Shown piece after piece: positions 1,214 to 60,384 of a stretch of DNA of 64,000 bases. Under the pieces are notes generated by a model. The model saw only the letters and a program-made list of their open reading frames with translations, did no database searches and was not told the DNA's origin. Positions within the stretch are counted from its first letter, which is position 1; every line of letters begins with the position of its first letter. A program made the translations under genes and the position numbers. This DNA is from Hydrogenovibrio sp. (GTDB lineage Bacteria; Pseudomonadota; Gammaproteobacteria; Thiomicrospirales; Thiomicrospiraceae): contig WFMZ01000058.1 in assembly GCA_015484555.1 (NCBI GenBank), positions 60,984 to 124,983 of the forward strand, written 5' to 3'.

Positions 1214-1232
1214 AAAAATCGCCAGGGGTGGG
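1214..1232 (+). repeat. Dispersed repeat copy R1 (aaaaatcgccaggggtggg)
   Basis: Exact 16-mer core AAAATCGCCAGGGGTG; intergenic metH/trmA. Confidence 0.9.
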
Positions 1233-1242
1233 TGTCGGGTTT

Positions 1243-1251
1243 TGCTATAAT
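1243..1251 (+). promoter_or_regulatory. Putative extended -10 promoter element (TGcTATAAT) upstream of trmA
   Basis: tgctataat about 41 bp before the trmA ATG; no good -35, and the dispersed repeat R1 occupies the -35 region. Confidence 0.4.
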
Positions 1252-1292
1252 TTAGCCAATTAAGATTAAATAAAGACACGCGAGAATAAGCC

Positions 1293-2402
1293 ATGCTTTG
1301 CCAAGTTTTCCCCGAACAATATGCCGATCAACTGGCTGATAAAACAACCCGTTTTAAGACGTTAGTCCCTAGTTTTAAAGATTTAACCGTGTATGAATCA
1401 GCGCCTAAACATTATCGTGCCCGTGCCGAGTTTCGTATTTGGCATGATGGTGATGAGTCAGACTATATTATGTTTGACCAGGCGACTAAGGAAAAGGTCA
1501 AAATAAAGGCTTGTCCTATGGCTTTGGCAAGCATTGATAGTTTAATGCCTAAACTGATGGCGGCTATTTGTAAGGTACCTGTGTTACGTGTAAGGCTTTT
1601 TCAAGTAGATTTCTTGGCAACCTTATCAGGTGAAATATTGGTCACTTTAATTTACCGTAAATCGATTGAAGAAGATGCCGATTGGTTACAGGCTGCAAAG
1701 GATTTGAAAGATGCTTTAGGGTTGACCTCTTTAATTGGGCGAGCAAGAAAACAAAAGATTTGTTTGCCGAATGACTTTATTGAAGAGCATTTGGAAGTGG
1801 ATGGCAAACCATTTATTTACCAGCAAATTGAAAATAGTTTTACTCAGCCAAACGCTGAAGTCGCGCAAAAAATGTTGAGTTGGGCAAGGGCGATGTCTCA
1901 AAAAGGCAATGACCTTTATGGCAAAGCCGACTTAATTGAACTTTATTGTGGAAATGGCAATTTTTCAATTGCCTTGGCAGAATTTTACAACCAAGTGTTG
2001 GCAACAGAGATTTCTAAAACCTCTGTTTATTCTGCGCAATACAACATTGAGAAGAATGCAGTACAAAACTTAGTGGTTGTCAAAATGGCGGCAGAAGAAA
2101 TTTCGCAAGCAATGAAAGGCACGCGAGAATTCTTTAGAATGAAAGAGGTTGATTTAACGCGCTATGATTTCAAGACCTTATTTGTAGACCCGCCTCGTTC
2201 GGGGCTAGATGACTTGACGCGTAGCATGGTTGCTGACTTTGACAGAGTGATTTATATTTCTTGTAACCCGGATACGTTGGCAAGAGATTTGGTTGAAATT
2301 GAAAAAACTCATGATATTGTGGCGTCAGCTGTATTTGATCAGTTTCCCTATACGCATCACCTGGAAGCAGGTGTGTTTTTAATTAAGAAGGAGTTAGTAT
2401 GA
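1293..2402 (+). CDS. trmA: tRNA (uracil-5-)-methyltransferase TrmA
   Basis: 369 aa; TrmA N-terminus ([11 protein letters not shown]), [16 protein letters not shown] motif, [10 protein letters not shown] and [13 protein letters not shown]. Confidence 0.93.
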
Positions 2403-3166
2403 TTTTAGCTTGGATAGGCGCCTTATTTATTGGCTTAAGCTTAGGTTTATTAGGCTCCGGCGGTTCTATTTTAACCGTGCCGACATTGGTCTATTTGGTG
2501 GGGCAAAACCCTAAGGTGGCGATTGCTGGTTCGTTATTAATTGTCGCTTTAATTAGTTTTACTTCTGCGATTGCCTATGCTCGTCAAAAAATGGTGGAGT
2601 GGCCAATTGTGTTTGCCTTTGGGCTTCCTGGTATGTTGGGGGCTGTACTGGGTGCCTGGACAGGGCAGTTTGTTAGTGTGGATGTCCAAATGTTATTTTT
2701 TGGTAGTTTGTTATTAGTGTCTTCTTACTTGATGTTTAAACCGCCTGTTTTAGAAACGGCTTCTGATCAAGCAGAAAGGCATATTATCAAAACTTCTATC
2801 GATGGTTTTTTGGTCGGGATTATTACGGGTTTAGTGGGTGTAGGCGGTGGATTTTTAATTATTCCAGCCTTGGTTTTATTGGCTGGTTTGTCCGTGCGTT
2901 TAGCGATAGGCACCAGCTTAGTTATTATTTCAATGCAAGCCTTTGCTGGATTTGTTGAATATTTACAGGTGCTGGAAAAATTACAGCTGTCGCTTGATTG
3001 GCAGATTATTGGCATATTTTCTGTGATTGGTATCGTAGGTGGGTTAATCGGTAGTAAGCTTTGTGCGTTAATTGATCAAACCTTATTGAAAAAGGTATTT
3101 GGTGGAGTATTAATTTTAATGGGCGGGTTTATTTTGACAGAAGTCTTATCTAGGTTGCTAAGGTAA
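2399..3166 (+). CDS. TauE/SafE (TSUP) family permease
   Basis: 255 aa polytopic protein with duplicated GxxxGLLGSGG / GLVGVGGG motifs. Confidence 0.85.
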
Positions 3167-3224
3167 ATTATATCTCGAATCTCTCTTATATAAAAATAGT
3201 CAGTCATGATAAAAGGACTTAACA

Positions 3225-3881
3225 ATGAAAATCGTCTCAATTAATATAGGTAAAGTGAAACAGTATGGCTGGAAAGGCGGTACGCCTTCGGCCATCAATA
3301 AACAGCCAGTATCAGGCAATATTGCCTTGACCTCGACTGGCTTGGAAGGAGATGAACAAGCTAATTTAGAGGCACACGGTGGTGAAGAAAAAGCCGTGTT
3401 AGTCATTCCTGAAAGTAATTATTCATTTTTAGGGGTACAGCAATCAACAGGATTTTTAGGGGAAAACTTACAGTTAAGTGGGTTAACTGAAGCAGACGTT
3501 CAAGTTGGTGACCGTTTACAAATAGGCTCGGTTTTACTGGAAGTTTCCCAGCCCCGTTCACCTTGCTGGAAACTAGGTGAAATAATGAATGATAAAGCCT
3601 TTTTAAAGCAATATTCGCAAGCGGGTCGGGTGGGGTTTTATTGTCGCGTGTTAAAAACAGGGGTAGTAAAAGCTGGGGCAAAAGTAGAGCGGGTCAGTAG
3701 CCAGATACCGAGTGTCGCAATAGATGCCTTGTTTGTCGCACAATTTGAACGCAACCCCAGTAAAACACAATGGCAGATGATACAAAAAGCCATTGATCAC
3801 CCTGCTTTATCGCAAGCTTGGTTAAGCAAGCTAACCACCCTTCAACAACGGGCAAACTTAGCCTTAACACCAAATTTATAA
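3225..3881 (+). CDS. MOSC domain protein (YiiM-like)
   Basis: GLEGDEQANLEAHGGEEKAVL and GENLQLSGLTEADVQVGDRLQIG are MOSC hallmarks. Confidence 0.85.
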   Translation: MKIVSINIGKVKQYGWKGGTPSAINKQPVSGNIALTSTGLEGDEQANLEAHGGEEKAVLVIPESNYSFLGVQQSTGFLGENLQLSGLTEADVQVGDRLQIGSVLLEVSQPRSPCWKLGEIMNDKAFLKQYSQAGRVGFYCRVLKTGVVKAGAKVERVSSQIPSVAIDALFVAQFERNPSKTQWQMIQKAIDHPALSQAWLSKLTTLQQRANLALTPNL

Positions 3882-3899
3882 CGGTTTATACTAAAGACT

Positions 3900-5631: not shown

Positions 5632-5677
5632 ACGGCTTTAAGTAAACTATTTATTACTTAATGTTTTGATAGAGTCT

Positions 5678-6247: not shown

Positions 6248-6358
6248 AATTATTTCCTTTATATTTAATATAATTTGATAATATTATTTTTTATAAATCA
6301 TGTCAAGAGTGTCTTGATTGTTTTTGAGTTGTGATTGATGACTGAACGGAGCGTTAGA

Positions 6359-7279: not shown

Positions 7280-7282
7280 GTT

Positions 7283-7876
7283 TTAAGTTAATTTATGCCC
7301 AATATACCAAGCATAGCGATGGGCGGAAAGGGTATTACTCTCTTTTAAAAAGCCTTCGCCATAAATTTCGGTGGTTAGGCTAGGAAAGGCATGATTCAAC
7401 TCACCGCTGTTCAAGTAAAAACTAGGGTTGCTAGGGGCGTTATTTTGAACGGGTGCTAAAAAGGTCTGTATAAATAATTTCCCACCTGGCTTTAGAGCCT
7501 GTTCAATTTGTGAAAACAAAGCTCTATTTAGGTATTTGCTCACCACAATCACATCATATTGTTGATAAGGAAATAGCATCTGTTCAAAGTCACATAAAGT
7601 AGGGGTGATACTTAAACGGTTTACCGCAGCATAATTATTCAGCTGTGTTAAGGCAATATCTGAAATATCCCATGCATCGACGGTTAAGCCACACTGTGCC
7701 ATAAACCGTGCATTACCACCGAGCCCACAGGCTAAGTCTAACCCCTTCCCTTTTAAAGGCAGTTGTGGGCCATGTTGTTTTAATACCCAGGCAGGAGGTA
7801 CAAAATCGCCAGGGGTGGTCTGTGCATATTTATAATCCCATTTTTTAGCAAGGGAATGAGGGGGTGAAAAGTCCAT
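7283..7876 (-). CDS. Class I SAM-dependent methyltransferase (TehB-like)
   Basis: GLDLACGLGGNARFMAQCGLTVDAWDIS motif I. Confidence 0.8.
   Translation of the reverse strand: MDFSPPHSLAKKWDYKYAQTTPGDFVPPAWVLKQHGPQLPLKGKGLDLACGLGGNARFMAQCGLTVDAWDISDIALTQLNNYAAVNRLSITPTLCDFEQMLFPYQQYDVIVVSKYLNRALFSQIEQALKPGGKLFIQTFLAPVQNNAPSNPSFYLNSGELNHAFPSLTTEIYGEGFLKESNTLSAHRYAWYIGHKLT
7802..7820 (+). repeat. Dispersed repeat copy R2, inside methyltransferase CDS (antisense orientation)
   Basis: aaaatcgccaggggtggtc; exact core. Sense strand encodes TTPGDF. Confidence 0.9.
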
Positions 7877-9327: not shown

Positions 9328-9336
9328 GATTTCGTC

Positions 9337-16347: not shown

Positions 16348-17307
16348 CTACCCTAGTTGCTCGCCAGTTAGTTGGCGTGCTTGTGCAAAATCGTAAGCAG
16401 ACATTTGTTTTTTACCGGTTGGCTGAACTAGGTGTAAGCACATAACGCCCGACCCTGTGGCAACATCCACGCCTTCTTTGTGTACCGCGAGGACCACCCC
16501 TGGCGTTTTTTGACTTTCAATGCCATTATCATCTGCTAGCAAGCTGGCTTGCCAAATACGTAATGGTTTGCCTTTAAATTGGGTGAAAGCAACTGGCCAA
16601 GGGTTGAAGGCTTGTACTTTTCGTACTAAGGTTTCAGCACTTTGTGTCCAGTCTATTTCTGCTTCTGCTTTCGATAGCTTTTCGGCATACACGACATCAT
16701 TTTCATTTTGTTTGATAGGGCGCAAGGTACCTTGCTGAATTTCATCTAGCGTTTGTAATAATGCGGTTGAACCTAGTTGGCTTAAGCGGTCGTGTAAAGT
16801 TTCGGCACTGTCTTCGGCTGTTATTTCGGTGCTTAACACGGCTAGCATATCGCCCGTATCCAAGCCTTTATCCATTTGCATAATGGTCACGCCAGATTCA
16901 GGGTCGCCTTGTTCTATCGCGCGTTGAATAGGGGCCGCGCCTCGCCATCTTGGTAATAAAGAAGCATGAATATTTAGACAACCATAAACGGGTGTATTTA
17001 AAACGATTTCAGGCAAGATTAAACCATAAGCCACCACAATCATCACATCGGCTTTTAAATTAGCTAGCTCGGCTTGTACGGCTTCATCACGTAAGGTTTC
17101 GGGTTGAAATACCGGGATATTTTCAGCCAACGCTTTTTGCTTAACAGGGCTGGCCGTTAGCTTTCGCCCGCGACCTGCTGGACGATCAGGTTGAGAATAC
17201 ACGGCAATGACGTTGTGTTTTGAAGCAATTAACGCTTCTAGTGCAGGCACGGAAAAGTCGGGTGTGCCAGCAAAGATAATGTTTAAAGGTTGGATTGTCT
17301 GGTTCAT
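16348..17307 (-). CDS. fmt: Methionyl-tRNA formyltransferase
   Basis: IIFAGTPDFSVPALEAL, NIHASLLPRWRGAAPIQRAI. Confidence 0.95.
   Translation of the reverse strand: MNQTIQPLNIIFAGTPDFSVPALEALIASKHNVIAVYSQPDRPAGRGRKLTASPVKQKALAENIPVFQPETLRDEAVQAELANLKADVMIVVAYGLILPEIVLNTPVYGCLNIHASLLPRWRGAAPIQRAIEQGDPESGVTIMQMDKGLDTGDMLAVLSTEITAEDSAETLHDRLSQLGSTALLQTLDEIQQGTLRPIKQNENDVVYAEKLSKAEAEIDWTQSAETLVRKVQAFNPWPVAFTQFKGKPLRIWQASLLADDNGIESQKTPGVVLAVHKEGVDVATGSGVMCLHLVQPTGKKQMSAYDFAQARQLTGEQLG
16492..16511 (-). repeat. Dispersed repeat copy R3 inside fmt (sense orientation)
   Basis: Reverse complement aaaaaacgccaggggtggtc, one mismatch; encodes QKTPGVV. Confidence 0.8.
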
Positions 17308-17897: not shown

Positions 17898-19046
17898 ATG
17901 GACAGACAAACACAATTACAACATTGGTTGCCTTTACATTTTGCACGCATGAGTGCAAAACAGTTGCAAAGTGCCGTGTCTATTTTTGGGTCTTTAGAAC
18001 AGGCTTTGTTAGCATCACCACAGGCTTGGAAGAGCAGTGGTATTGCGACAGATAAAAAAATTGAACACCTTTTTGATGAAGATATGCCCGCTAAAATTGA
18101 ACAGGCATTGGCTTGGTGTGCACAAGAAAATCACACTATTTTATTGTTAGAAGATAAGGCTTATCCGAAGTTGCTAGCCGAAATTTCCGACCCGCCAATT
18201 TTGCTTTATGTGATGGGCAGTGTGCCGTTATTGTCTGACCCACAGTTGGCAATGGTGGGCAGTCGCAATGCTTCACGATACGGTGTAATGGTAGCGCAAG
18301 ACTTTGCGCAACACTTAAGTAGCGTTGGCTTAACCATTACCAGTGGCTTGGCATCAGGTATCGATAAAGCCGCGCACGAAGGGGCGTTGAAAGCGGAGCA
18401 AAGTCAAAAATCGCCAGGGGTGGGGTGCACGGTTGCGGTGGTGGCAACGGGGTTAGATCGTGTTTACCCTGCGGTAAATAAAGCCTTGGCGCACAGTATT
18501 GTTCAAAATGGCACGATTGTGTCGGAATATCCTTTGGGTACCAAACCTTTGCCTCGTTATTTTCCAGAACGTAATCGCATTGTTTCCGGCTTAAGTGTCG
18601 GCGTGTTAGTGGTGGAAGCGGCATTGAAAAGTGGTTCTTTAATCACGGCACGTTTAGCGATGGAACAAGGACGAGAGGTGTTTGCTGTACCGGGTTCCAT
18701 TAACAGTACGCAAGCCAAAGGTTGTCACCAGCTGATTCGGCAGGGTGCTAAGTTGGTCGAATCGGGTAAAGATATTTTGGAAGATTTACGAGGCATGCTG
18801 CAGTTACCTTTGTTTGAAGAGGGTGCTTCGGCAGGGTCGAATACCTTTGACGTTTCAAACTCCCCGTCCAAGAAAGCTAAACCACTGGATATTTTAAAGT
18901 GGGTAGAATTTGAACCTATTGGCTTGGATGAGTTGGTGGTGTTGTCTAAAATGGCGGTGTCAGACATTCAATCGCAAATGATGATGTTGGAATTATCAGG
19001 TCAGGTGGAAGCTCTGTCAGCAGGGCGCTGGAGGCGGTTAACTTAA
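17898..19046 (+). CDS. dprA: DNA processing protein DprA
   Basis: MVGSRNASRYG, ITSGLASGIDKAAHEGAL, PLGTKPLPRYFPERNRIVSGLS. Confidence 0.94.
   Translation: MDRQTQLQHWLPLHFARMSAKQLQSAVSIFGSLEQALLASPQAWKSSGIATDKKIEHLFDEDMPAKIEQALAWCAQENHTILLLEDKAYPKLLAEISDPPILLYVMGSVPLLSDPQLAMVGSRNASRYGVMVAQDFAQHLSSVGLTITSGLASGIDKAAHEGALKAEQSQKSPGVGCTVAVVATGLDRVYPAVNKALAHSIVQNGTIVSEYPLGTKPLPRYFPERNRIVSGLSVGVLVVEAALKSGSLITARLAMEQGREVFAVPGSINSTQAKGCHQLIRQGAKLVESGKDILEDLRGMLQLPLFEEGASAGSNTFDVSNSPSKKAKPLDILKWVEFEPIGLDELVVLSKMAVSDIQSQMMMLELSGQVEALSAGRWRRLT
18406..18424 (+). repeat. Dispersed repeat copy R4 inside dprA (sense orientation)
   Basis: aaaaatcgccaggggtggg exact core; encodes QKSPGVG. Confidence 0.9.
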
Positions 19047-22929: not shown

Positions 22930-24741
22930 ATGAAACAGCTTGTTGCTGATAGTTTGGTCAAGGCCATTAATCAACTGAAATTGGAAGCGGTTTTAGCCGC
23001 CGATTTCGAGCCTAATATTGTCGTTGAAAATGCCAAAGATAAAGCGCATGGTGATTTTGCAACCAACTTAGCGATGATGCTGACCAAACTTGTAGGCAAG
23101 CCACCTAGAGACGTTGCCCAGCTAATTATTGACCGCTTACCTGAATCAGATGTCATTACTAAAGTGGCGATTGCTGGCCCGGGTTTTATAAACTTCTTTA
23201 TTGATGAAGCGGCTAAATACCAAGTGGTGCATGAAGTAGCCAAACAAGGAAATCAGTTTGGTGAAAGTACGTTGGGGGCGGGGCAATCTGTATTGGTTGA
23301 GTTTGTTTCTGCTAACCCAACCGGACCTTTGCATGTAGGTCATGGTCGTGGTGCGGCCTATGGTGCCAGTTTATCTAACTTGCTGAAAGTAGCCGGCTAT
23401 ACCGTTTCTAATGAATATTATGTGAACGATGCAGGTCGCCAAATGGATATTTTGGCGACTTCTACTTGGTTGCGCTACCTGTCTGAAAGTGGTCAAAGCT
23501 TTCCTTTTCCAAGCAATGGCTATAAGGGTGACTACATCTTTGATGTGGCAAAAGGGTTGATTCAACAACATGGCGATAAGTTTGTTTTTGAAATAGCAGA
23601 GGTCTTTGCAAACGTAGCGGCTGATGAAGTAAAAGATGATCAGGGTGAAGTGATTTCTGGCGACAAAGAAAAGCATATTGATGGCTTAATCGTGAACGCC
23701 AAGCAGCTATTGGGCGAAGCCAATTACCGTGTTATTTTTGATGAAGTGTTAAACCTAATTTTAAGTGATATTAAAGAAGATTTATCAGGCTTTAACGTTG
23801 AGTTTGATACCTGGTTCTCCGAAAGATCATTAATGGATTCAGGTGTTATTGATGCGGCACTAGAAAAGTTACAAGCCGCAGGAAAAATTTATGAAAAATC
23901 AGGTGCGCTTTGGTTTAAGTCTACCGACTATGGCGATGAAAAAGATCGTGTTGTGGTGCGAGACAATGGTTTAAAAACCTATTTTGCATCGGACATTGCC
24001 TATCACCTAAATAAACTAGAACGAGGGTTTGATACGCTAATTGATGTTTGGGGGTCTGATCACCATGGTTATATTCCGCGCGTAGAAGCGGCGATGACAG
24101 CGATGGGTGCAGACCCTAAAGCGCTTGAAGTCTTGTTGGTTCAGTTTGCTATTTTGTATCGTTCGGGCAAAAAGTTATCAATGTCGACTCGTTCTGGTCA
24201 ATTTGTTACTTTGCGTGAATTACGCGAAGAAGTGGGCGTTGATGCGGCACGTTTTTTCTATGTTCAGCGTAAGTCAGAACAACACATGGACTTTGATTTA
24301 GATTTAGCCAAGTCACGTTCAAATGAAAACCCGGTTTATTATATTCAGTATGCGCATGCGCGTATTTGCCGTGTATTTGAGCAAGCAAAGCAAAAAGGTT
24401 TTGCGGTAGATTTTGAAAGTCAAAAGTCTACCCTAAAGGGCATAAAGCCAGGGGTGGTCCCGCTGTCTTCTTTGACACTAGAACAAGAAAGCCTGTTAGC
24501 AACCTTATTGGGCAAGTATCCTGATGTAGTGAGCCGTGCGGCACAAGCCCATGAACCACACCAAATTGCTTATTACTTAAAAGACTTGGCGCACGGGCTT
24601 CACAGTTACTATAACGCTTGTCAGTTTGTGGTGGAAGATGAAGCCGTACGTAGTGCACGTTTTGCATTGATTGCTGCGGTTAGACAAGTGTTACGTAATG
24701 GTTTGGCGATTATTGGTGTGTCTGCACCTGAAAGCATGTAA
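22930..24741 (+). CDS. argS: Arginyl-tRNA synthetase
   Basis: VEFVSANPTGPLHVGHGRGAAYG, KLSMSTRSG KMSKS-like motif. Confidence 0.95.
   Translation: MKQLVADSLVKAINQLKLEAVLAADFEPNIVVENAKDKAHGDFATNLAMMLTKLVGKPPRDVAQLIIDRLPESDVITKVAIAGPGFINFFIDEAAKYQVVHEVAKQGNQFGESTLGAGQSVLVEFVSANPTGPLHVGHGRGAAYGASLSNLLKVAGYTVSNEYYVNDAGRQMDILATSTWLRYLSESGQSFPFPSNGYKGDYIFDVAKGLIQQHGDKFVFEIAEVFANVAADEVKDDQGEVISGDKEKHIDGLIVNAKQLLGEANYRVIFDEVLNLILSDIKEDLSGFNVEFDTWFSERSLMDSGVIDAALEKLQAAGKIYEKSGALWFKSTDYGDEKDRVVVRDNGLKTYFASDIAYHLNKLERGFDTLIDVWGSDHHGYIPRVEAAMTAMGADPKALEVLLVQFAILYRSGKKLSMSTRSGQFVTLRELREEVGVDAARFFYVQRKSEQHMDFDLDLAKSRSNENPVYYIQYAHARICRVFEQAKQKGFAVDFESQKSTLKGIKPGVVPLSSLTLEQESLLATLLGKYPDVVSRAAQAHEPHQIAYYLKDLAHGLHSYYNACQFVVEDEAVRSARFALIAAVRQVLRNGLAIIGVSAPESM
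24442..24460 (+). repeat. Dispersed repeat copy R5 (degenerate) inside argS
   Basis: ataaagccaggggtggtcc; core gccaggggtggtc retained; encodes IKPGVVP. Confidence 0.6.
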
Positions 24742-26956: not shown

Positions 26957-28480
26957 ATGTCGAGCAGCTACGCTTCTATTCAAACACGCGCTTTTATGGG
27001 ATTAGCATCTCCATTGGTTGAGGTAGAAATTCACGTTACCAATGGTTTGCCCCAATTATCAATGGTAGGTTTGCCAGAGGCTGCCGTGAAAGAAAGTCGA
27101 GATAGAGTGCGTTCTGCCATTTTATCTAGCGGGTTTAGTTTGCCTCCCAAACGTATTACCTTGAACTTAGCGCCGGGTGACTTACCGAAGCAGGGCAGTC
27201 ATTATGATTTACCGATTGCAATTTCCATTTTATCGGCAACGGGTCAAATTACTTTGCCCACAGAGATGGATTCGTTTGAGTTTTTTGGTGAGCTTTCTTT
27301 AAATGGCGAAATTCGTTCCGTGAATGCCTTGTTACCTGCCTTGTTAGCGGCTAAAAACCAGGGCAAGACGGTCGTCCTTCCCATGCAAAACCTTGAAGAA
27401 GCTAGCTTGCTTGATTACCCTAATATTCTCGGCGCGGCTCATTTATTAGACATTGTTGCCTTTTTACAAAATGGAATGTCATTAACCTCTGTTCCAGACA
27501 AAGGCTGTAGTGAGCAAGCTTGTTACGAGCAAGATATGGCGGATGTTCAAGGCCAAGTACAGGCAAAAAGAGTGCTAGAAATTTGTGCCAGTGGCGGGCA
27601 TTCATTGTTAATGGTAGGTGAGCCGGGTTCTGGAAAAAGTATGTTGGCCACGCGCTTATTAACCATTTTACCTGAGTGGACTCAAGCTGAAGCGGTTGAG
27701 GCAGCAGTGATTCGTTCTATTGCTGGTCAGTCAGTTTCAGCAGATAATTTTTATACTCGTAAATTAATTGCGCCACATCATTTAACCACGGCAGCCGCTT
27801 TAATTGGTGGTGGGTCGGGCGCGGTGCCTAAGCCAGGCGCGATTAGTTTGGCGAATCATTCAATATTATTTTTAGATGAACTACCAGAATTTAGACGAGA
27901 TGTTTTAGAGGCATTAAGAGAGCCGTTAGAAAGTAAAGAGGTGACTATTTCACGAGTGAATGGGCATGCTTCTTACCCTGCTAATGTCCAGCTAGTAGCG
28001 GCTTGTAATCCTTCGCCTTCAGGATTTTTTGCAGATGATTCTTTGGGGCGCTGTCAAGATACGCCTGAACAAATTGCACGTTATATGCAAAAAATATCGG
28101 GCCCTTTGTTGGATAGAATTGATTGCCATATTGAAGTCAAACCGGTGTCATTTAATGAGTTGAATGGCGAATCAAAGACGGTGAGTGAAACTTCAGCGGT
28201 AATTCGTACCAGAGTGGTTGCTTGTCGTCACAGACAGCTTCAGCGCCAGGGCAAGCTAAATGCTGACTTATCCCCTAAAGAAATTTCTGCCGCGGCAAAG
28301 CTAAATGCTGAGGCCTCACAGCTATTAGAGCATGCTGTGAATCGTTTAGGCTTGTCGGCAAGGGGGTATCACCGAGTATTGAAAATAGCCTTAACGCTAG
28401 CAGATATGTTGGGTGAGCCTTGCCAGGCCAATCATATTGCAGAAGCGTTGGCCTATCGTAAATTGGATTCAACCCTGTAA
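26957..28480 (+). CDS. comM: YifB/ComM Mg-chelatase-like AAA+ ATPase
   Basis: LPQLSMVGLPEAAVKESRDRVRSAI, GEPGSGKSMLA, LFLDELPEF. Confidence 0.93.
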   Translation: MSSSYASIQTRAFMGLASPLVEVEIHVTNGLPQLSMVGLPEAAVKESRDRVRSAILSSGFSLPPKRITLNLAPGDLPKQGSHYDLPIAISILSATGQITLPTEMDSFEFFGELSLNGEIRSVNALLPALLAAKNQGKTVVLPMQNLEEASLLDYPNILGAAHLLDIVAFLQNGMSLTSVPDKGCSEQACYEQDMADVQGQVQAKRVLEICASGGHSLLMVGEPGSGKSMLATRLLTILPEWTQAEAVEAAVIRSIAGQSVSADNFYTRKLIAPHHLTTAAALIGGGSGAVPKPGAISLANHSILFLDELPEFRRDVLEALREPLESKEVTISRVNGHASYPANVQLVAACNPSPSGFFADDSLGRCQDTPEQIARYMQKISGPLLDRIDCHIEVKPVSFNELNGESKTVSETSAVIRTRVVACRHRQLQRQGKLNADLSPKEISAAAKLNAEASQLLEHAVNRLGLSARGYHRVLKIALTLADMLGEPCQANHIAEALAYRKLDSTL

Positions 28481-29172
28481 TGGAAATGGAGTCTATTTAC
28501 CTGACCGCTTTGCTGGTCGGTTTACTGGGCGGCGTGCATTGTTTGGGTATGTGTGGCGGTATTGTCGGCACGCTAAGCTTTAACCTACGCCCTGAAGTTC
28601 AACTTAGCTACATTCGGCAAATTCCTTATCAGTTGGCTTATAACCTTGGCCGTATTACGAGCTATGTATTAATAGGTTGTTTGTTTGGTTTTTTAGGCAG
28701 TCGCTTAGTCTCTTTAGCGGAATTTTTACCCCTTCAACAAGGTCTGCAGTTTTTTGCGGGTAGTTTCATGATTGTACTTGGGCTTTATTTAGCGGGTGTT
28801 TGGAACGGTATTGTTAGAGTTGAAGCGCTGGGTAAAACGGTGTGGAAATGGCTAGCGCCTGTGGCTAGCAAGATGTCTTGTGTACAAACTCTGCCACAAG
28901 CGATGTTATATGGTTTGGTTTGGGGTTGGTTGCCTTGTGGCCTGGTGTATAGCATGCTTATTATGGCTTTGTCAGCGGGAAGTGCGCTAGAGGGTGGATT
29001 GGTGATGCTCGCATTTGGCTTAGGCACCTTGCCAAACTTGCTTTTAATGGGCTCGTTCGCGTTCTTCTTTACGCGCTTATCTCGTCATATCTGGGTTCGC
29101 CGATTTGCAGGTAGTACCGTAATTTTGATGGGTTCATGGCAAATATGGCTGGCGGTGAGTGTCAGTGTTTAA
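28480..29172 (+). CDS. Sulfite exporter TauE/SafE-family (COG2836-like) membrane protein
   Basis: GGVHCLGMCGGIVG and GLVWGWLPCGLVYSML motifs. Confidence 0.85.
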   Translation: MEMESIYLTALLVGLLGGVHCLGMCGGIVGTLSFNLRPEVQLSYIRQIPYQLAYNLGRITSYVLIGCLFGFLGSRLVSLAEFLPLQQGLQFFAGSFMIVLGLYLAGVWNGIVRVEALGKTVWKWLAPVASKMSCVQTLPQAMLYGLVWGWLPCGLVYSMLIMALSAGSALEGGLVMLAFGLGTLPNLLLMGSFAFFFTRLSRHIWVRRFAGSTVILMGSWQIWLAVSVSV

Positions 29173-29190: not shown

Positions 29191-29210
29191 GACCACCCCT
29201 GGCGATTTTT
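29191..29210 (-). repeat. Dispersed repeat copy R6
   Basis: gaccacccctggcgattttt; exact core; between convergent genes. Confidence 0.9.
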
Positions 29211-29290: not shown

Positions 29291-30619
29291 TTAGTCGTCA
29301 TCTTTAACCGCAAGAAAGTTATAGTTTATTTTTAAGGTTTCTAGTAAGAGCCCTTCTCCAGCTAGTATTCTATACTTTGCAGTTAATTCATCTGCATCAC
29401 TATTAATAAGACTGCGGCTCGCGGTGACATATTCATTTTCAGTGTTTAATAGATCTAATAAAGAGCGACGTCCCAAGTTAAATTGCTTACGGTAACCCAC
29501 GAGTGTTTTGTGGGTTAGCTTGATGTGTTGGTTAATATATTCTAATTGTTTGCCAATATAGCTTTGTGCATTCCAAGCAAACCTTAAGTTTTCGATGACT
29601 TGTCTTCTGGTGTTGTTACGAATTTCAGAGGCTCTATGGTATTCAGCGGCAGTTCTATCTCTAGCAGCGCTATCTTTTCCACCATTGTATAGGTTGTATT
29701 TCACACGGATCATGGCTTGAAGATATTCATTTTTACCAGCAATGCCGGCTAAATTATTATCATAAGTCTTTTCTATTTCTAGGTTGACTGAAGGATAGTA
29801 GCCTTTTTTAGAACTATCAAATTGTGCTCTGGCCGCGGCAACATCAGCATTGGCAGAGCGTAAAGTAGGGTGGTTTTTCATGGCTAGTGCGGTTGCATCT
29901 TCAAGGGTATCAGGCAGCTTGAAAGTGAATTTAGGCTTAACTAAAGCATTGTCTGGTTGGCGGCCTAAAACACGCTGGAATGTCGCAAAGGCATCATAGT
30001 AATTATTTTCAGCCCCCCCTTGGTTAGATTGTGCTAAAGCTAAGCGTGCTTTAGCTTGGTCGACTTCAACCTGATTTCCAATACCTGCATTATAGCGCTT
30101 TACGATCTGGTCAAGAATTTTTGTGTGCGTGGTTAAGTTGTCTTCAGACAGCTTTAAAATGTCTTTTTCACGCAATAAATTGATATAGGCTGTTGCCATA
30201 CTTAAAGCAATATCATTTGCTGCTGATAGAGCTTTGAATGAAGCTGAGTCTAAACGAGATTGCTGGCGAGCGACTTCATTTTGCGTACCGAATCCTTCAA
30301 ATAAATTTTGAGTTAACTTGATAGAAGCTTCTCGGCGAGTCAGTTCGTTGTTAAACTCATTTCCTTGTGTGCCTCTAGAGACTTTTTCATACCCAAGCCC
30401 TCCCTTTAAATCAATAACAGGGCGGTAACCACCTTTTGCTCCATTAACCTCCGCTTCAACGCTACGAAAGGCCTTCACTTCTTGGCGGAATTTTGGGTTA
30501 TGAATAATGGCATCTTTAATAGTGCTTTCTAAAGAAATGGCCGAGGCAGTGCTAGGAAGCCAGGTAAGGCTTGATAATAATACTGCAGGAAGGGAAAGTT
30601 TAAGAGTTGAGTGTGTCAT
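29291..30619 (-). CDS. TolC-family outer membrane efflux protein (LapE-like)
   Basis: TolC repeats, RYNAGIGNQVEVDQAKARLALAQ, GRRSLLDLLNTENEY. Confidence 0.9.
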   Translation of the reverse strand: MTHSTLKLSLPAVLLSSLTWLPSTASAISLESTIKDAIIHNPKFRQEVKAFRSVEAEVNGAKGGYRPVIDLKGGLGYEKVSRGTQGNEFNNELTRREASIKLTQNLFEGFGTQNEVARQQSRLDSASFKALSAANDIALSMATAYINLLREKDILKLSEDNLTTHTKILDQIVKRYNAGIGNQVEVDQAKARLALAQSNQGGAENNYYDAFATFQRVLGRQPDNALVKPKFTFKLPDTLEDATALAMKNHPTLRSANADVAAARAQFDSSKKGYYPSVNLEIEKTYDNNLAGIAGKNEYLQAMIRVKYNLYNGGKDSAARDRTAAEYHRASEIRNNTRRQVIENLRFAWNAQSYIGKQLEYINQHIKLTHKTLVGYRKQFNLGRRSLLDLLNTENEYVTASRSLINSDADELTAKYRILAGEGLLLETLKINYNFLAVKDDD

Positions 30620-32636: not shown

Positions 32637-34835
32637 TTAGGTTTCTTTCTTATTAATACGGCCAGATTTCAAGGCCTCTAAGACGGTATCTTTTTGGCCT
32701 ATGGCAACTAATTTCCCATTTTCAATAACAATTAAGCGGTCAACCAGTTGTAAGATATTCATTTTATGGGTCACCACGACCAGTGTATTTTCAATCGTAT
32801 TTTCTTTCAGTCGCTGGATTAAGGTTGCTTCAGTACTAGAATCCATTGAATTCGTAGGCTCATCGAACAAGTATATGGGGGCGGGTGTTAAGAGTGCACG
32901 GGCCACCCCAATACTTTGACGTTGTCCGCCAGAAAGCGAGGTGCCTCCTTCATTGATCTTTAAGCTGTAGCCAGAAGGGTGGGTTTTAATAAAATCATCT
33001 ACACCTGCAATTTTAGCCGCCTTTAAAATAGACTCATCTTCAATATAAGGTGCTTTGTAGGCAATATTTTCTCGGACATCTCCACTGAATAATGTCACTT
33101 CTTGTGGGACGTAGTTAATATTGTGTCTAAGTTCCGCTGGATCTAGTTGAGCGATATCAATGCCATCAATTAAAATTGAGCCAGAATCCAGCTTGTAAAA
33201 TGCCAGTATCAACTTTTCAATGGTCGACTTCCCTGAGCCGATTCGGCCAATGATACCCACTTTATCCTTGGCATTAATTTTAAAGCTAACCCCATTTAAG
33301 GCAGGTTTAGTTTCATTTGGGTAGGTAAAAACAACATTAATAAATTCAATTTCACCTTTAAGGATAGGGTGTTGAATAAATTTCTTGCCCATAGGTCGTT
33401 CAACGTCTTTGTTCATTAGTTCATTTAAGGAATTAAGGGCTGTTTTGGTTTGTTCATAACTGGCGGTTAGATTTGCAAATTGCCCAGCTGGTCCAATGGC
33501 TCTTTGGCTTAGCATGACGGTAGCGATGAGTCCTCCCATGGTTAAGTCGCCATCTTGAATAAGGTAAACCCCTGCTAAGACGATAATCACCGTACTCATT
33601 TGTTGCATGAATCCAGTCGCTCGGCCAATAGAGCTTTGTAGCATTTTAGATTTAATACTCGTCTTGGCAATTTCGCCAACGGCTTGTTCCCATTTCCATT
33701 GTGCTCTTGCTTCGACCCCGAGCGCTTTAATTGTTTCAATAGAGGTGAGGGTTTCAATGAGCACTGCATTTTTTTGAGAAGAGGCTTCATAAGTTGCTTC
33801 AGTAGCCTCTTTTATCGACTTTTTCATGGCAATACTATAGAGCAAGATAATGGCAATGATGCCAATAGGAACCAGAACAATGCTACCGGCAATAAAAAAT
33901 ATAACGAATAAGAAAATAATAACGAAAGGAAGATCTACTAAGGAAGCAATGGTGCTAGAGGTAAAAAAGTTTCGGATGCTATCAAACTCTTTTAAATTAT
34001 TGGCAAAAGCACCGATGGCACCTTGACGATTTTCCATGGTTAAGCCGAGCGTTTGCTCAAATAGTTTAGCGGACATGATGACATCACTCTTTTTGCCCGC
34101 GATTTCTAAAAAATAGGAACGTAGGTGTTTTAATATGATGTCAAACATATAAACCATGCTAATTCCCAAGGCTAATACCCATAAGGATTCAATGGCATTA
34201 TTCGGGACAATTCGGTCATAGACGTTCATGACAAATAGTGGGTTAGCAAGAATGAATATATTGATGACAATCGAGGCAATAATGACGTCTCGATAAATTG
34301 CTTTATTGTTCCAAAAAGTTGACCAGAACCAATGCCCTTTTTTTTGCTGAACTAAGTTTTCTTTACGGTTAGCCTGGTTCAGTGTTTCTGCAAGGTAGAT
34401 GGTATAGCCGAGGTATTGTTCATTTAAGTCCTTTAAAGATAGCGTGGTTTGACCTTCAGTCGAATTTGCCAAAATAACATTGGCCTGTTGGTCATCAATG
34501 GATTGTAGTAGGCAGGCCTGGTCGTCCTTTAAAATTAAAATACAAGGTAGGACCAGATTAGAAATTTCTGATAATTTCCTCTGTTTAATTGAGGCTTTAA
34601 TGTTTGCTCTAGCCGCTGCGCGAATCAGCAGTTCTGGCGATAAACGCTTTGAATCTTGTATCGGCAGGCCTGCTAAGAAAGCGCTGCTAGAAAAAGGGCG
34701 ACCTTGTAGCTTACAGTAGGTCACTAAGCTGTCTAGTAAAGGATCAAAAAACTCATTTTTTATAGTTGGTGTAGGAATCACTGACTCTCTTTTAAAGTGA
34801 ATTATTTGAGGGGGACTAATTTTGTCATATAACAA
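32637..34835 (-). CDS. Type I secretion ABC exporter/ATPase (LapB-like, N-terminal C39-like domain)
   Basis: GRIGSGKST Walker A, LSGGQRQSIGVARALL signature, LFDEPTNSMD Walker B, TM domain. Confidence 0.92.
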   Translation of the reverse strand: MLYDKISPPQIIHFKRESVIPTPTIKNEFFDPLLDSLVTYCKLQGRPFSSSAFLAGLPIQDSKRLSPELLIRAAARANIKASIKQRKLSEISNLVLPCILILKDDQACLLQSIDDQQANVILANSTEGQTTLSLKDLNEQYLGYTIYLAETLNQANRKENLVQQKKGHWFWSTFWNNKAIYRDVIIASIVINIFILANPLFVMNVYDRIVPNNAIESLWVLALGISMVYMFDIILKHLRSYFLEIAGKKSDVIMSAKLFEQTLGLTMENRQGAIGAFANNLKEFDSIRNFFTSSTIASLVDLPFVIIFLFVIFFIAGSIVLVPIGIIAIILLYSIAMKKSIKEATEATYEASSQKNAVLIETLTSIETIKALGVEARAQWKWEQAVGEIAKTSIKSKMLQSSIGRATGFMQQMSTVIIVLAGVYLIQDGDLTMGGLIATVMLSQRAIGPAGQFANLTASYEQTKTALNSLNELMNKDVERPMGKKFIQHPILKGEIEFINVVFTYPNETKPALNGVSFKINAKDKVGIIGRIGSGKSTIEKLILAFYKLDSGSILIDGIDIAQLDPAELRHNINYVPQEVTLFSGDVRENIAYKAPYIEDESILKAAKIAGVDDFIKTHPSGYSLKINEGGTSLSGGQRQSIGVARALLTPAPIYLFDEPTNSMDSSTEATLIQRLKENTIENTLVVVTHKMNILQLVDRLIVIENGKLVAIGQKDTVLEALKSGRINKKET

Positions 34836-43008: not shown

Positions 43009-43455
43009 ATGAATATGAAACGTTTACGAGTTTGGGTTTCTTTATTGGGTGTAGTGTTTATACTGTCAGCTTGTGAAAAAGCACCGGTCAATATTACCTC
43101 CGTCAGTTTTGTTAACGATGACAAAGGCTCTGGAAACTTTAATCGTATGGTTAAGATTTGTTTCGAAGAACCTCTTAGTAGTACTTACTATCATAAAATT
43201 ACGATTGTAACAAAGCAGTCTTACAAATTAACGGGTGGTAATTTCTTGCGCCCAATGGCTTCTGATCCAGACAATAAATGTCAGCAACGTAATCTATATA
43301 GCTATATTAATAAGTCTTCTCCTCTGGGATCCCGTGAAATGATTAAAGACTACATGACGCCGGGTAATATCCACCAAGTGCTGGTTCAGATTTATGCTAA
43401 CAAGCCTAAAGGTAAAGAGCTGCCTATGACGGAAGCCTTGTTTACAAACCTTTAA
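43009..43455 (+). CDS. Hypothetical lipoprotein
   Basis: Lipobox (VFILSAC) after short signal peptide; no family recognised. Confidence 0.7.
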   Translation: MNMKRLRVWVSLLGVVFILSACEKAPVNITSVSFVNDDKGSGNFNRMVKICFEEPLSSTYYHKITIVTKQSYKLTGGNFLRPMASDPDNKCQQRNLYSYINKSSPLGSREMIKDYMTPGNIHQVLVQIYANKPKGKELPMTEALFTNL

Positions 43456-43468
43456 TTCTAGTGACACT

Positions 43469-43485
43469 CACCCCTGGCGATTTTT
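43469..43485 (-). repeat. Dispersed repeat copy R7
   Basis: cacccctggcgattttt; exact core, 14 bp after a stop codon. Confidence 0.9.
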
Positions 43486-43518: not shown

Positions 43519-44262
43519 ATGATAAACCAAGCCAAATCCACTACTTTAAATAGTATTTCATTGCCGCTTAAAGCCTTGTTTACAGGTTACCTTTTGGTCA
43601 TTGGCGTGGGGCTATTGATGGCTGGTGCGCAAATTATGCTGACTCACGGCATGGCAGACGGAAAACCAGGGTTATCCATTGATGATATTGTGTATAGTTA
43701 CTATGGTCATCGAAATAATTCAAAACTGGAATCTAAATTAAATGGATCTATGAAAGATAAAGCGCCCGAAAATGTGCGTTTTCAGCTAATAGAATGGGCT
43801 AGAAAAGGAGCGAAAGCTAAAGACTGGGAACCTAGCATTAAAGGTATTACTCAGCAATATTGTGTGAAATGTCATTCTGTCGTACCCGGTATTCCTAATT
43901 TCACTAAATTAAGTGCATTTCAGAAAGTTGCTCAAGTGGATGAAGGAGATGACTATAAAAAGTTAACCCGAATTTCTCATATTCATTTATTCGGTATCGC
44001 CTTTATTTTCTTTTTTGTCGGGTTTATTTTCTCAATGGCACAGGGTTTTTCCAGTCGAGTTCAAGCAGCGATTATTGCCATTCCTTTTGTCTTTTTATTG
44101 GTAGATGTTAGTTCTTGGTGGCTCACTAAATTAGACCCTGAATTTGCTATATTGGTCATTGTTGGGGGAGGGGCTTATAGCTTGGCTTCTGGTGTTATGA
44201 TTGCGACTTCTCTTTACCAAATGTGGGTAATGGACTGGTTAGCCAATAGGCGACTAAAATAG
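43519..44262 (+). CDS. Membrane protein with single c-type heme motif
   Basis: 247 aa; N-terminal TM, QQYCVKCHSVVPG (CxxCH), followed by three or more TM segments. Confidence 0.65.
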   Translation: MINQAKSTTLNSISLPLKALFTGYLLVIGVGLLMAGAQIMLTHGMADGKPGLSIDDIVYSYYGHRNNSKLESKLNGSMKDKAPENVRFQLIEWARKGAKAKDWEPSIKGITQQYCVKCHSVVPGIPNFTKLSAFQKVAQVDEGDDYKKLTRISHIHLFGIAFIFFFVGFIFSMAQGFSSRVQAAIIAIPFVFLLVDVSSWWLTKLDPEFAILVIVGGGAYSLASGVMIATSLYQMWVMDWLANRRLK

Positions 44263-44318: not shown

Positions 44319-44337
44319 CCCACCCCTGGCGATTTTT
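44319..44337 (-). repeat. Dispersed repeat copy R8
   Basis: cccacccctggcgattttt; exact core; intergenic before truD. Confidence 0.9.
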
Positions 44338-47185: not shown

Positions 47186-47204
47186 AAAATCGCCAGGGGT
47201 GGTC
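47186..47204 (+). repeat. Dispersed repeat copy R9
   Basis: aaaatcgccaggggtggtc; exact core; intergenic. Confidence 0.9.
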
Positions 47205-52205: not shown

Positions 52206-52216
52206 ATCGAGTCTCC

Positions 52217-52854: not shown

Positions 52855-52873
52855 AAAATCGCCAGGGGTGGTC
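52855..52873 (+). repeat. Dispersed repeat copy R10
   Basis: aaaatcgccaggggtggtc; exact core; intergenic downstream of radC. Confidence 0.9.
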
Positions 52874-53656: not shown

Positions 53657-53666
53657 AACTGACAGG

Positions 53667-54083: not shown

Positions 54084-54133
54084 GTTAAAATAGTGGGCTA
54101 ATACAGGGTGTCGTAAATGATGAGAAGAGCACA

Positions 54134-55345: not shown

Positions 55346-55351
55346 AAAGGA

Positions 55352-55819: not shown

Positions 55820-55865
55820 TTCAATTATAAACACGACATACTTAACATTTAATTAGGAGAGCGCA

Positions 55866-56351: not shown

Positions 56352-56364
56352 TTCTAATCTGCAA

Positions 56365-56403
56365 GCATAAAAAAGGGCGGTTTATATAGCCCTTTTTTTA
56401 TGC
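56365..56403 (+). terminator. Rho-independent terminator
   Basis: GCATAAAAAAGGGC-loop-GCCCTTTTTTTATGC. Confidence 0.8.
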
Positions 56404-56581
56404 GAAGGCGGAAGAGGTTGGCCTGATACTTTATACAACAAGTGTCATGTTTCTGAAGAGCGGCAAGGCAGATAGCATCTCTAAAAAGTAAGTGAAATTA
56501 GGTGAATAATGTAAGTAAGGCCATCTTAATACCCAAAGCGGTTTTTGGTTATCAATGTTAGAATAATCCTATTATCTATAA

Positions 56582-57508
<927 letters not shown>

Positions 57509-57536
57509 TGAGTGGTTTGGTTGTAGAGTCATTTAT

Positions 57537-58301
57537 GTGATGGATTGGCTAGATACTTTATTACTGTTATTCATTTCCTTTGTCGCCAACCTGCTTTCTG
57601 CCTTAGCAGGAGGCGGTGCAGGCTTGCTTCAACTGCCTGCTTTACTCTTTCTTGGGTTGCCTTTCTCGGTCGCCTTGGCCACCCATAAAGTTGCCAGTGT
57701 CTTTTTAGGTATTGGTGCCAGTACACGCTACCTAAAAGAATCAAAACTTAACGTTACTTTTATTGCCCTTATTCTTGCCTTTGGCTTGCCTGGCGTTGTG
57801 CTGGGTGCCAATGTTATTTTAAGCATAGATGATCGGCTTTCACAGTTAGCGCTAGGATTTTTAACCTTGTCCTTAGGTATCTATTCCTTTTTTAACCCTG
57901 CTTTGGGCAAAGATATGTTGCTTAAAAATCAGCATTTTATGGGCTGGCTAATTGGGGGAGGTGTGTTGTTTGTCATTGGTTTTTTAAATGGTTCCTTAAC
58001 GTCTGGAACCGGCCTGTTCGTGACCTTGTGGCTAGTCCGTTGGTTTGGGTTAGATTACAAGTTGGCAGTTGCTTATACCCTGGTGTTGGTTGGCATGTTT
58101 TGGAATGGAACAGGGGCCATTACCTTGGGCATGCAAGGTCAAATAGAATGGAGTTGGTTGCCGGCTTTAATTGTAGGCTCTTTATTAGGGGGTTACTTTG
58201 GTGTACATTTAGCCTTAATGAAAGGTAATGTCTTGATTAAGCGTAGCTTTGAAGTGATTACGGTATTGGTCGGCCTTAGCTTAATGATTAAGAATATTTA
58301 A
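57537..58301 (+). CDS. TauE/SafE (TSUP) family permease
   Basis: NLLSALAGGGAGLLQLPALLFLGLP and repeated TM architecture. Confidence 0.85.
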   Translation: MMDWLDTLLLLFISFVANLLSALAGGGAGLLQLPALLFLGLPFSVALATHKVASVFLGIGASTRYLKESKLNVTFIALILAFGLPGVVLGANVILSIDDRLSQLALGFLTLSLGIYSFFNPALGKDMLLKNQHFMGWLIGGGVLFVIGFLNGSLTSGTGLFVTLWLVRWFGLDYKLAVAYTLVLVGMFWNGTGAITLGMQGQIEWSWLPALIVGSLLGGYFGVHLALMKGNVLIKRSFEVITVLVGLSLMIKNI

Positions 58302-58335
58302 CCTGCTTAAAGGTGAGTAAAGTGGTTCGTTTTTT

Positions 58336-58848
58336 TTAAATGTCCTGAGAACGTATGACCTGAACTAACTTACCGCACCCTTGCTTAAGGTCTTGCCAAT
58401 GATTTGGCAGTATAAAGTGTACCAAGGCTCCAGAAGGGAATAGGCCACTATCACAATGCTCGCAACTTCCTTTTTCTTCTAAGAATTGAATTAAGGCTTT
58501 TAGTCCGGGTTCATGCGCCACAATACAAACCTTGGTGTAGTCAGGTGGAATATTCGCTAGTAGCTCAATCAGGGTATCTAGGTCGGCGGTTGCTAAGGTG
58601 GGCAAAGTCTCTTTGTATGGGGAGGTATTCGCTGGCTTTAAACGTCGAAATGTTTGGCAGACTCGATTGTCAGGGGAAAGATACACGGCATCAAATAAAA
58701 TATTTTTGTGTTTAAGCCATTCCCCTAACTTACAAGCCTGCTTTTTACCTTTGGGTGAAAGGTGAGGGTCTGTAGAAGTGCCTGTTTCATGTCTATCCGT
58801 TTTGGCATGACGAATAATAAACAGCTCTCTTAAGGGTTGGGTTGTCAT
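58336..58848 (-). CDS. SixA-like phosphohistidine phosphatase
   Basis: LFIIRHAKTDR, LSPKGKKQA, VAHEPGL. Confidence 0.87.
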   Translation of the reverse strand: MTTQPLRELFIIRHAKTDRHETGTSTDPHLSPKGKKQACKLGEWLKHKNILFDAVYLSPDNRVCQTFRRLKPANTSPYKETLPTLATADLDTLIELLANIPPDYTKVCIVAHEPGLKALIQFLEEKGSCEHCDSGLFPSGALVHFILPNHWQDLKQGCGKLVQVIRSQDI

Positions 58849-58850
58849 CC

Positions 58851-59522
58851 CTAAATACCGTACTGCGCTCGATAGCTACTCATTGCCTCTAAATATTGTT
58901 GGCAATTTGGCATAGTAGGGTGGGTTTCAAGGTAATGAATAATATCGTGCATATTAATAATGCTGTAAACGGGAATACCATAATCTCGCTCTACTTCTTG
59001 AATGGCAGAAAGGTCGCCTTGACCTTTTTCCATTCTATCTAGCGCCACAATGACGCCCGCAGGGGTTGCGCCTTGTGCCTTGATTAAGTCCATTGATTCA
59101 CGAATAGCAGTACCTGCTGTAATCACATCATCAATAATTAAAATATTTCCTGCTAGCTCATGGCCAACAATGTTGCCACCTTCACCATGGTTTTTCGCTT
59201 CTTTACGGTTAAAGGCATAGGGTCTGTCTATTTGGAAGTCGAGCGCTAAAGAAACTGATGTGGTGGCGGCTAAAGGAATACCTTTGTATGCAGGGCCAAA
59301 CAAAACGTTAAAAGGAATCTCTTTATTGGCAATGGCGGCGGCATAGCCTTTCGCTAAGGTGGCGAGTTGCCTGCCAGTATTGAACAGGCCAGCATTAAAA
59401 AAGTAAGGACTAATTCGACCAGATTTTAAGGTAAATTTCCCTAGCTTTAGTGCACCAGTGTGCAGAATAAATTCAATAAATTCACTTTTATTTGTATCGC
59501 TGTTCATGTTGTTTAAGGCCAC
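58851..59522 (-). CDS. pyrE: Orotate phosphoribosyltransferase
   Basis: [38 protein letters not shown]. Confidence 0.95.
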
Positions 59523-59781
59523 TTTTCGGGTAAAAATAATGATTTATATTTTACGCTTAAATTGACACTTTTCAAGTCGTTTTGGTTTGAAAGCTAAACC
59601 GATAAAATTAAAAATAATTTTATTTGCTTTGCGGTAAAGTGTTTTTAAAACAAATGGTTATCTTTATTTTTGAGTGTTTTAAATAAATTGGCATAAATGG
59701 TGCGTTAGCTAGGCTTAACAAACATTAAACAATGTAATTAGTCAAAAAAATGACAGTTGCGTCTGAATAAGGAAAACCATC

Positions 59782-60279
59782 ATGGCGATTGATTTGAGAC
59801 AAGTAGAGCCACTAGGTTCAAAGAGCGTTTTATTAGAACAAGCAATGAGACGACATAAAGCTAATAATGATATGGGAGTGGGCGCCCACATTGATATGTC
59901 GGACATGGTTGAGCCAGATTTTGAATGGTTAAATGAAGATAAGTCGGCCTTGAAGGACTTGGTTTCTCAAATGGATTCTTCTATTGGTACCTTGGCCAGA
60001 CAAATGAAAGACATGGAGTCTGAAGCAGAACGCGCGCGCCGTAAAATGGAAAAAGAGCAGACATTACTGTTTAAACAAATTCGAACCTTGAATACCTTGT
60101 TGAAAAACCAAGTAGAAATTTACAGCTCGGTGGAAACCCAAATGGATGCGATTGAATTAAAGCAAAACCAGTTTGTGCCTCAAATAGGCGTAGGGCTTTT
60201 AGCAGGCTTGCTGTCAGCCATCACTGTGTTGGCAACAGCACCTTGGATGACCTTACTAATGGAAAGCTTAAAGGCTTAA
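59782..60279 (+). CDS. Hypothetical coiled-coil protein with C-terminal TM segment
   Basis: Coiled coil MKDMESEAERARRKMEKEQTLLFKQIRTLN and C-terminal hydrophobic helix. Confidence 0.65.
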   Translation: MAIDLRQVEPLGSKSVLLEQAMRRHKANNDMGVGAHIDMSDMVEPDFEWLNEDKSALKDLVSQMDSSIGTLARQMKDMESEAERARRKMEKEQTLLFKQIRTLNTLLKNQVEIYSSVETQMDAIELKQNQFVPQIGVGLLAGLLSAITVLATAPWMTLLMESLKA

Positions 60280-60289
60280 AGGCTTAAAG
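60266..60289 (+). repeat. Three perfect 8-bp tandem copies GCTTAAAG over the stop codon
   Basis: gcttaaaggcttaaaggcttaaag read directly. Confidence 0.8.
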
Positions 60290-60334
60290 ACTTGATTTAA
60301 GGGCTTAGGCTTGTGAAGCTAATCCTCCAACCTT

Positions 60335-60353
60335 AAAAATCGCCAGGGGTGGG
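60335..60353 (+). repeat. Dispersed repeat copy R11
   Basis: aaaaatcgccaggggtggg; exact core. Confidence 0.9.
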
Positions 60354-60363
60354 TACTATAAAA

Positions 60364-60384
60364 GACCACCCTCTGACGATTTTT
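60364..60384 (-). repeat. Dispersed repeat copy R12 (degenerate), inverted against R11
   Basis: gaccaccctctgacgattttt; forms an R11/R12 inverted pair in a convergent intergenic region. Confidence 0.75.

Follow-up and report, generated by a model that had tools for sequence, protein, structure and literature searches.

To our knowledge, uptake sequences are established only in the Neisseriaceae and the Pasteurellaceae. The DNA uptake sequence (DUS) of the Neisseriaceae, read by the receptor ComP, occurs in hundreds of copies in both orientations, is tolerated within genes, forms inverted pairs tied to terminators and is spelled in dialects that follow phylogeny (PMC3630211). The uptake signal sequence (USS) of the Pasteurellaceae, for which ComN/PpdA has been proposed as the receptor, is gammaproteobacterial and combines a GC-rich core with adjoining AT tracts and clade-specific subtypes (PMC12616744). 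Two other kinds of repeated site have to be considered beside them, namely the highly iterated palindrome HIP1 (GCGATCGC) of cyanobacteria, whose sites can disappear and give way to other words from one close relative to the next (PMC4390886), and the 130-bp gyrase motif of E. coli, with flanks phased at 10.75 bp, which acts downstream of transcription units (PMC6379681). Here we describe a dispersed word, the 17-mer AAAATCGCCAGGGGTGG, in a stretch of 64,000 nucleotides from Hydrogenovibrio sp. (contig WFMZ01000058.1, positions 60,984 to 124,983; hereafter the window) and in the genome to which it belongs. The word is part of a genome-wide signal with lineage dialects, which is real and strongly supported, and we consider it, with a probability of roughly 0.6, to be the local spelling of a signal by which this family of sulfur oxidisers recognises its own DNA, in the manner of an uptake sequence.

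The word resembles the DUS in its hundreds of copies, mixed orientation, terminator pairs, tolerance within genes and phylogenetic dialects. However, it belongs to another taxon, is longer (17-27 bp), and has a putative palindromic ancestral form and phased AT flanks, and no receptor for it was found. With the USS it shares the class Gammaproteobacteria, a GC-rich core beside AT tracts and clade subtypes, while the core is unrelated, the AT phasing reaches about 70 bp on each side, copies are fewer and the relatives are palindromic. HIP1, itself highly iterated and represented by other words in some relatives, is, to judge from this comparison, the nearest palindromic analogue, whereas the dialect of the window is asymmetric, mostly intergenic and part of a system with no C5-methyltransferase association.

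Copy number and placement in the genome

The draft genome of the window (G000; 1.92 Mb in 73 contigs, GC 40%, 94% complete, with a form II RuBisCO) has 222 perfect matches to AAAATCGCCAGGGGTGG, divided equally between the strands (111 each). A further 46 copies have one mismatch and 29 have two (297 in all), whereas a reversed control word gives no match in G000 at up to two mismatches. Such dispersal of a short word in hundreds of copies, far over chance, is a feature of DUS and USS, as is the use of both orientations without replichore polarity. Relative to GC skew the copies divide 133:110, and with no clear bias of orientation a strand-polar role, of the type of Chi or the FtsK-orienting polar sequences (KOPS), was rejected, as an earlier note on this stretch had already argued. 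Conservation extends about 8 bp upstream and about 2 bp downstream of the 17-mer, giving a logo of approximately (C/G)AAA-S-Y-Y-A-AAAATCGCCAGGGGTGG-K-Y in which CCAGGGGTGG is nearly invariant, and the copies have no longer repeat in common. The earlier note had held that fewer than about 20 copies in the genome, or confinement of all copies to one larger repeat family, would speak against an uptake or chromosomal signal; the count lies well past that floor and the short conserved span shows that the copies do not form such a family.

Although simple gene calls cover 90% of G000, 214 of the 297 copies (72%) are intergenic, 73 are coding and 10 lie at gene edges. Density is highest in convergent gaps (2.81/kb), lower in tandem gaps (1.18/kb) and lowest in divergent gaps (0.32/kb), and the majority of the intergenic copies lie within 60 bp past a stop codon. 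Singletons make up 209 of the copies. Copies lying close together form 44 pairs, of which 36 have the inverted +- orientation, usually with a separation of 11-16 bp. The inverted pairs fold as terminators while single copies fold no better than shuffled sequence. Intergenic enrichment, inverted pairs at gene 3' ends and tolerance inside genes are likewise known from DUS and USS. Mismatches are commoner in the coding copies. The spacing of copies is more even than random (coefficient of variation 0.67 against 0.95 +- 0.06). A DUS or USS would be expected to be scarce in recently acquired DNA; the motif is present in an only slightly larger fraction of the genes with a detected ortholog (0.18-0.20) than of those without (0.14). 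The sole contig of G000 longer than 15 kb without the motif is C72 (C72:1-15367), which carries a type III-D CRISPR-Cas cluster (Cas10, Cas7-like, Csx1/CARF).

Copies in the window

In the window, the 16-mer AAAATCGCCAGGGGTG has nine exact copies, on the plus strand at 1215, 7802, 18407, 47186, 52855 and 60336 and on the minus strand at 29194, 43469 and 44321, all within 0-3 bp of where the earlier note had placed them. Matches to the motif at up to three mismatches number 11, against 0.49 expected from dinucleotide shuffles. The three near-copies that had been listed beside the exact ones differ in quality, since one has a single mismatch, one has four and the last is a degenerate inverted partner. 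The copies and the competence gene dprA are as follows.

1215-1231, plus strand: exact copy, intergenic, upstream of the tRNA (uracil-5-)-methyltransferase gene 1293-2402
7802-7818, plus strand: exact copy, within the methyltransferase-like gene 7283-7876 (minus strand), antisense to the gene
16494-16510, minus strand: one-mismatch copy AAAAACGCCAGGGGTGG, within gene 16348-17307 (minus strand), a formyltransferase (fmt) as judged from its start
17898-19046, plus strand: dprA, DNA-processing protein of transformation (TIGR00732, E 3.3e-78)
18407-18423, plus strand: exact copy, within dprA in a loop of variable length; kept in the Lost City lineage (see below)
24441-24457, plus strand: degenerate near-copy with four mismatches and CCAGGGGTGG retained, within argS
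29193-29209, minus strand: exact copy, intergenic, between convergent genes 28480-29172 (plus) and 29291-30619 (minus)
43468-43484, minus strand: copy matching 16 of 17 bases, intergenic, directly past a gene end at 43455
44320-44336, minus strand: exact copy, intergenic, past a gene end at 44262
47186-47202, plus strand: exact copy, intergenic
52855-52871, plus strand: exact copy, intergenic, between convergent genes
60336-60352, plus strand: exact copy, left arm of an inverted pair in a convergent gene gap
60364-60384, minus strand: degenerate copy, right arm of the pair with 60336-60352

The last two copies form an inverted pair that folds into a hairpin resembling a terminator (-26.4 kcal/mol, z -4.1). 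Among the genes of the window, dprA alone was recognised as a competence gene, and a copy of the motif lies within it. Elsewhere in the window, positions 32637-34835 encode a type I secretion permease/ATPase of the LssB type.

Dialects among relatives

The exact AAAATCGCCAGGGGTGG was not found in 60 other genomes, 12 of them congeneric. Among about 400 members of the class the word was seen singly only, at one mismatch, and a broad contig scan, which possibly did not include the window's own genome, gave single, isolated, chance-like matches in unrelated taxa. A looser search reveals that the congeners carry a related, differently spelled word. Dialect words were derived from over-represented k-mers in samples of 57-200 kb per genome. 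The palindrome CCAGGCCTGG, with A/T tracts on both sides, is present in G002, G005, G006, G007, G009, G010, G015 and G036, and genus g6 has it in the form A(C/G)CAGGCCTG(C/G)T. The dialect of G001 and G011 is AAAATCTGCCAGGTTGGG(G), that of G004 is AAAATCTGCCAGGCTGGG and that of G034 is ACCGGCCGGT; AAAATCTGCCAGG(T/C)TGGG is another of the relatives' own words. In G018 the word is AAAAAGTCGGGGACCCCC (9 copies/100 kb), alike in the layout of its A-tracts but different in its core. The k-mer counts gave no comparable over-represented word in the samples of G014, G020, G437, G442 and G013. Of 46 family genomes, 25 carry SCAGGCCTGS in 132-1037 copies each, against 0-10 for its reversed control, and in genus g6, which holds the most copies (G017, G033 and others), more than 90% of them lie in genes.

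The dialect labels cluster on a midpoint-rooted tree of the single gene TopA from 30 genomes (0 of 200 shuffles as low), which unites G001/G011 and G004 in one clade. Dialects that follow the lineages, as far as this single-gene tree can tell, are again a feature of DUS and USS. Because the palindrome occurs in the deepest and in most other branches of the tree, CCAGGCCTGG is probably the ancestral form. Several dialects exist, the majority palindromic, and the word of the window is one among them, which is more than a reading of the single window could show, and the dialect system looks like a way of telling own from foreign DNA.

Three further observations concern near relatives. G008, the sister genome of G000, is without the palindrome and has a dispersed TTAAGTGCCTCCTTAA-type repeat (8 copies/133 kb), which is perhaps a further dialect or a hairpin repeat. 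In genus g3, palindromes number 28 (G032), 132 (G435) and 198 (G024) against 375-922 in near relatives, and decay or switching is possibly under way. G020, sampled over its first 300 kb, contains TTTCACGTGAAA-type palindromes resembling parS sites.

No earlier description of the motif was found in the open-access literature, subscription papers lying outside the search. In that literature neither AAAATCGCCAGGGGTGG itself nor Thiomicrospira together with DNA uptake sequence gave a match, and among the matches listed for CCAGGCCTGG none was on this subject by title.

Respelling at the same sites

When the G000 genes with the word are aligned with their orthologs, 7 of 29 pairs (six different genes) have the relative's own word at an offset of 0-1 bp from that of G000 (p 3e-11), whereas control positions fall within 20 bp in 0.4% of cases. 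These genes include that of the window copy 16494-16510, whose bases read CCAGGCCTGG in the relative G007 and follow the window's dialect in the Lost City lineage. As the word of the relative stands at the position of the G000 word in six genes, the signal has been respelled in place. Downstream of genes, co-location is weaker (20/73 vs 62/485, p 0.002).

The Lost City lineage came from a metagenome scan, in which many contigs (ACQI01...) carry the dialect of the window. In the metagenome of the Lost City carbonate chimneys, the oxic zones are dominated by Thiomicrospira-like bacteria (PMC2958825). G000 and this lineage are 74% identical in DNA and have 22 sites in common against 7 unshared, a fraction that is biased upward because the contigs were picked for holding the word. 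Several of the unshared sites differ by substitution only, with no gap. The motif is conserved in this lineage against diverged flanks. The dialect and sites shared with it, together with the form II RuBisCO, suggest a place for G000 in the Thiomicrospira lineage. We hold tentatively, at somewhat less than even odds, the fuller proposal that the family signal was an ancestral perfect palindrome CCAGGCCTGG which was respelled in place into asymmetric dialects such as AAAATCGCCAGGGGTGG.

Uptake machinery and a possible mechanism

G000 encodes ComEC, ComEA and DprA, together with an MSHA-type pilus ATPase, secretin and accessory genes on contig C34, PilT/PilU-like ATPases on contig C43 and a prepilin cluster at C27:68977-74213. 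Competence machinery accompanies DUS and USS as well, but it is also present in motif-free relatives and is not specific. ComEC and ComEA each occur in 44 of the 46 family genomes, and secretin and pilin families in most of them, with and without the motif. The machinery is therefore compatible with uptake and explains neither the presence of the word nor its dialect.

Since the distribution of copies, the terminator-like pairs, the tolerance in coding DNA, the in-place respelling and the competence genes agree, an uptake-like signal appears to be the best fit, as one of the options in the earlier note had it. DNA that bears the word would be preferred by a receptor, for which a type IV (minor) pilin is the likeliest candidate. 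Such DNA would enter via the pilus and ComEA/ComEC, be protected by DprA and then recombine, and biased uptake with recombination (molecular drive) would accumulate hundreds of copies. The copies would build up where they are least harmful, at gene 3' ends and in variable protein loops, and the inverted pairs at 3' ends would double as terminators. A change in receptor specificity would lead to respelling of copies at existing sites and so to dialects.

Several points weigh against an uptake signal. Most relatives here have a palindromic word, unlike any DUS or USS known to us. No receptor was found, and across the family genomes ComEC, ComEA, MshL-type secretin and the pilin family are unassociated with the presence of the motif, for which reason these genes and the minor pilins were rejected as its on/off switch. 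Minor pilins were found, none of them tied to a dialect; for one that was modelled (mean pLDDT 81) the best PDB match was a type IV pilin, without significance. PilQ was not found in G000, a draft of 94% completeness, in which only the MSHA-type secretin is present. Finally, the AT content around the word is helically phased over about 140 bp, which exceeds what is known for USS and hints at a protein that wraps DNA.

Helical phasing and alternative explanations

Around single copies in G000, AT content varies with a period of about 10 bp from about -75 to +66, in intergenic and coding copies alike. The amplitude reaches 0.10, the 95% null being about 0.03. In the palindrome genomes G036/G015, AT peaks lie about 10, 21, 31 and 43 bp from the dyad; the other congeners show the phasing weakly, and genus g6 and G034 not at all. 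Because of this phasing, the main rival to an uptake signal is a site for a genome-wide chromosomal protein (a nucleoid protein, gyrase or a gyrase-like complex) which would bend or wrap about 140 bp and sit at gene 3' ends, where positive supercoils accumulate, with dialects tracking changes in the protein. The palindromic form of most dialects, as expected of a symmetric complex, and the even spacing of copies would suit such a protein, and the gyrase motif and the BIME/REP elements (bacterial interspersed mosaic and repetitive extragenic palindromic elements) of E. coli share phased AT/GC flanks of about 130 bp and a 3'-end location with the word (PMC6379681). However, gyrase prefers -4G, -2A and +1G at cleavage (PMC12324340), and the palindrome, centred on GGCC, has C at -2 and does not fit this core with its dyad, although G000 has the phased flanks (about 130 bp) of a strong gyrase site. 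Dialects and in-place respelling further separate the word from the E. coli elements. Dialect shifts among species of one genus, and the complete absence of a word in G014, G020, G437 and G442, are unexpected for a conserved chromosomal function, and the genus with most copies shows no phasing. The earlier suggestion of a chromosome-organising protein site thus finds support in the flanks and meets difficulty in the core and the dialects, and we regard it as unlikely, though still the most serious competitor.

An improbable explanation is a palindrome of the HIP1 type, kept by biased mutation or repair in connection with an orphan DNA methyltransferase and without any role in uptake. A short GC-rich palindrome does occur in most family members, mainly inside genes in one genus, and the replacement of HIP sites among close relatives would be a precedent for the dialects (PMC4390886). 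The dialect of the window, in contrast, lacks symmetry, spans 17-27 bp and lies mostly between genes, in part as terminator pairs, so that a palindromic word is found in most relatives and not here. At least 19 of 25 palindrome-rich genomes lack C5-methyltransferase genes (PF00145), the only class covered by the search, and the proposed link to these enzymes was rejected as no association with such genomes was seen.

Slightly less probable still is a mobile repeat, either a REP/REPIN element or a miniature inverted-repeat transposable element (MITE), spread by a REP-associated tyrosine transposase (RAYT) or another transposase. The RAYT that the earlier note had proposed to look for exists in G000 (Y1_Tnp, PF01797; C27:74340-75047), many exact copies and inverted pairs would favour mobility, and a two-mismatch copy of the motif lies just downstream of the RAYT, adjoining the downstream repeat. 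The RAYT is, however, flanked by its own GTAG-headed REP-like repeats of the GGGTAGCGTCCCC family (about 26 pattern matches, several in tandem or inverted pairs), which is the usual RAYT-REP arrangement and distinct from the motif. The motif has no GTAG head, no flanking homology and no visible target duplication, and 25% of its copies lie within genes (more than 90% in genus g6). Gaps in ortholog alignments are commoner at coding copies (15/54 vs 5.5% elsewhere), which would favour insertion; we read them as placement in variable loops, for example in DprA, whose loop is the longer one in word-less relatives too, and some insertion may have occurred. The relatives' different word on the same bases, together with the shared sites and dialect of the Lost City lineage, argues strongly against a mobile repeat, and with the substitution-only differences and the separate REP family of the RAYT this option of the earlier note finds no support.

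It is equally improbable that the motif is merely a favoured terminator stem reused across the genome, as the location of most intergenic copies close after stop codons and the folding of inverted pairs could suggest, since most copies are unpaired, single ones fold no better than shuffles and many lie in coding DNA. A virus-borne repeat was rejected, as only two IMG/VR contigs contain the 17-mer and neither aligns to G000.

Implications

If the reading with an ancestral palindrome is true, the family would be a third lineage with uptake sequences and the first with palindromic ones, with an extended wrapped-DNA component, and palindromes like HIP1 would become linked to uptake sequences. A palindromic ancestor may then explain the purpose of highly iterated palindromes. 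If instead a wrapping protein is responsible, the word would mark an unknown genome-wide DNA-wrapping system whose specificity evolves fast, and this would be no less surprising. Respelling at exact orthologous sites distinguishes a history in which the reader changed and the sites followed from one of independent spread. A third lineage among free-living chemoautotrophs, with several dialects and word-less relatives in one family, would make the origin, switching and loss of uptake specificity directly testable.

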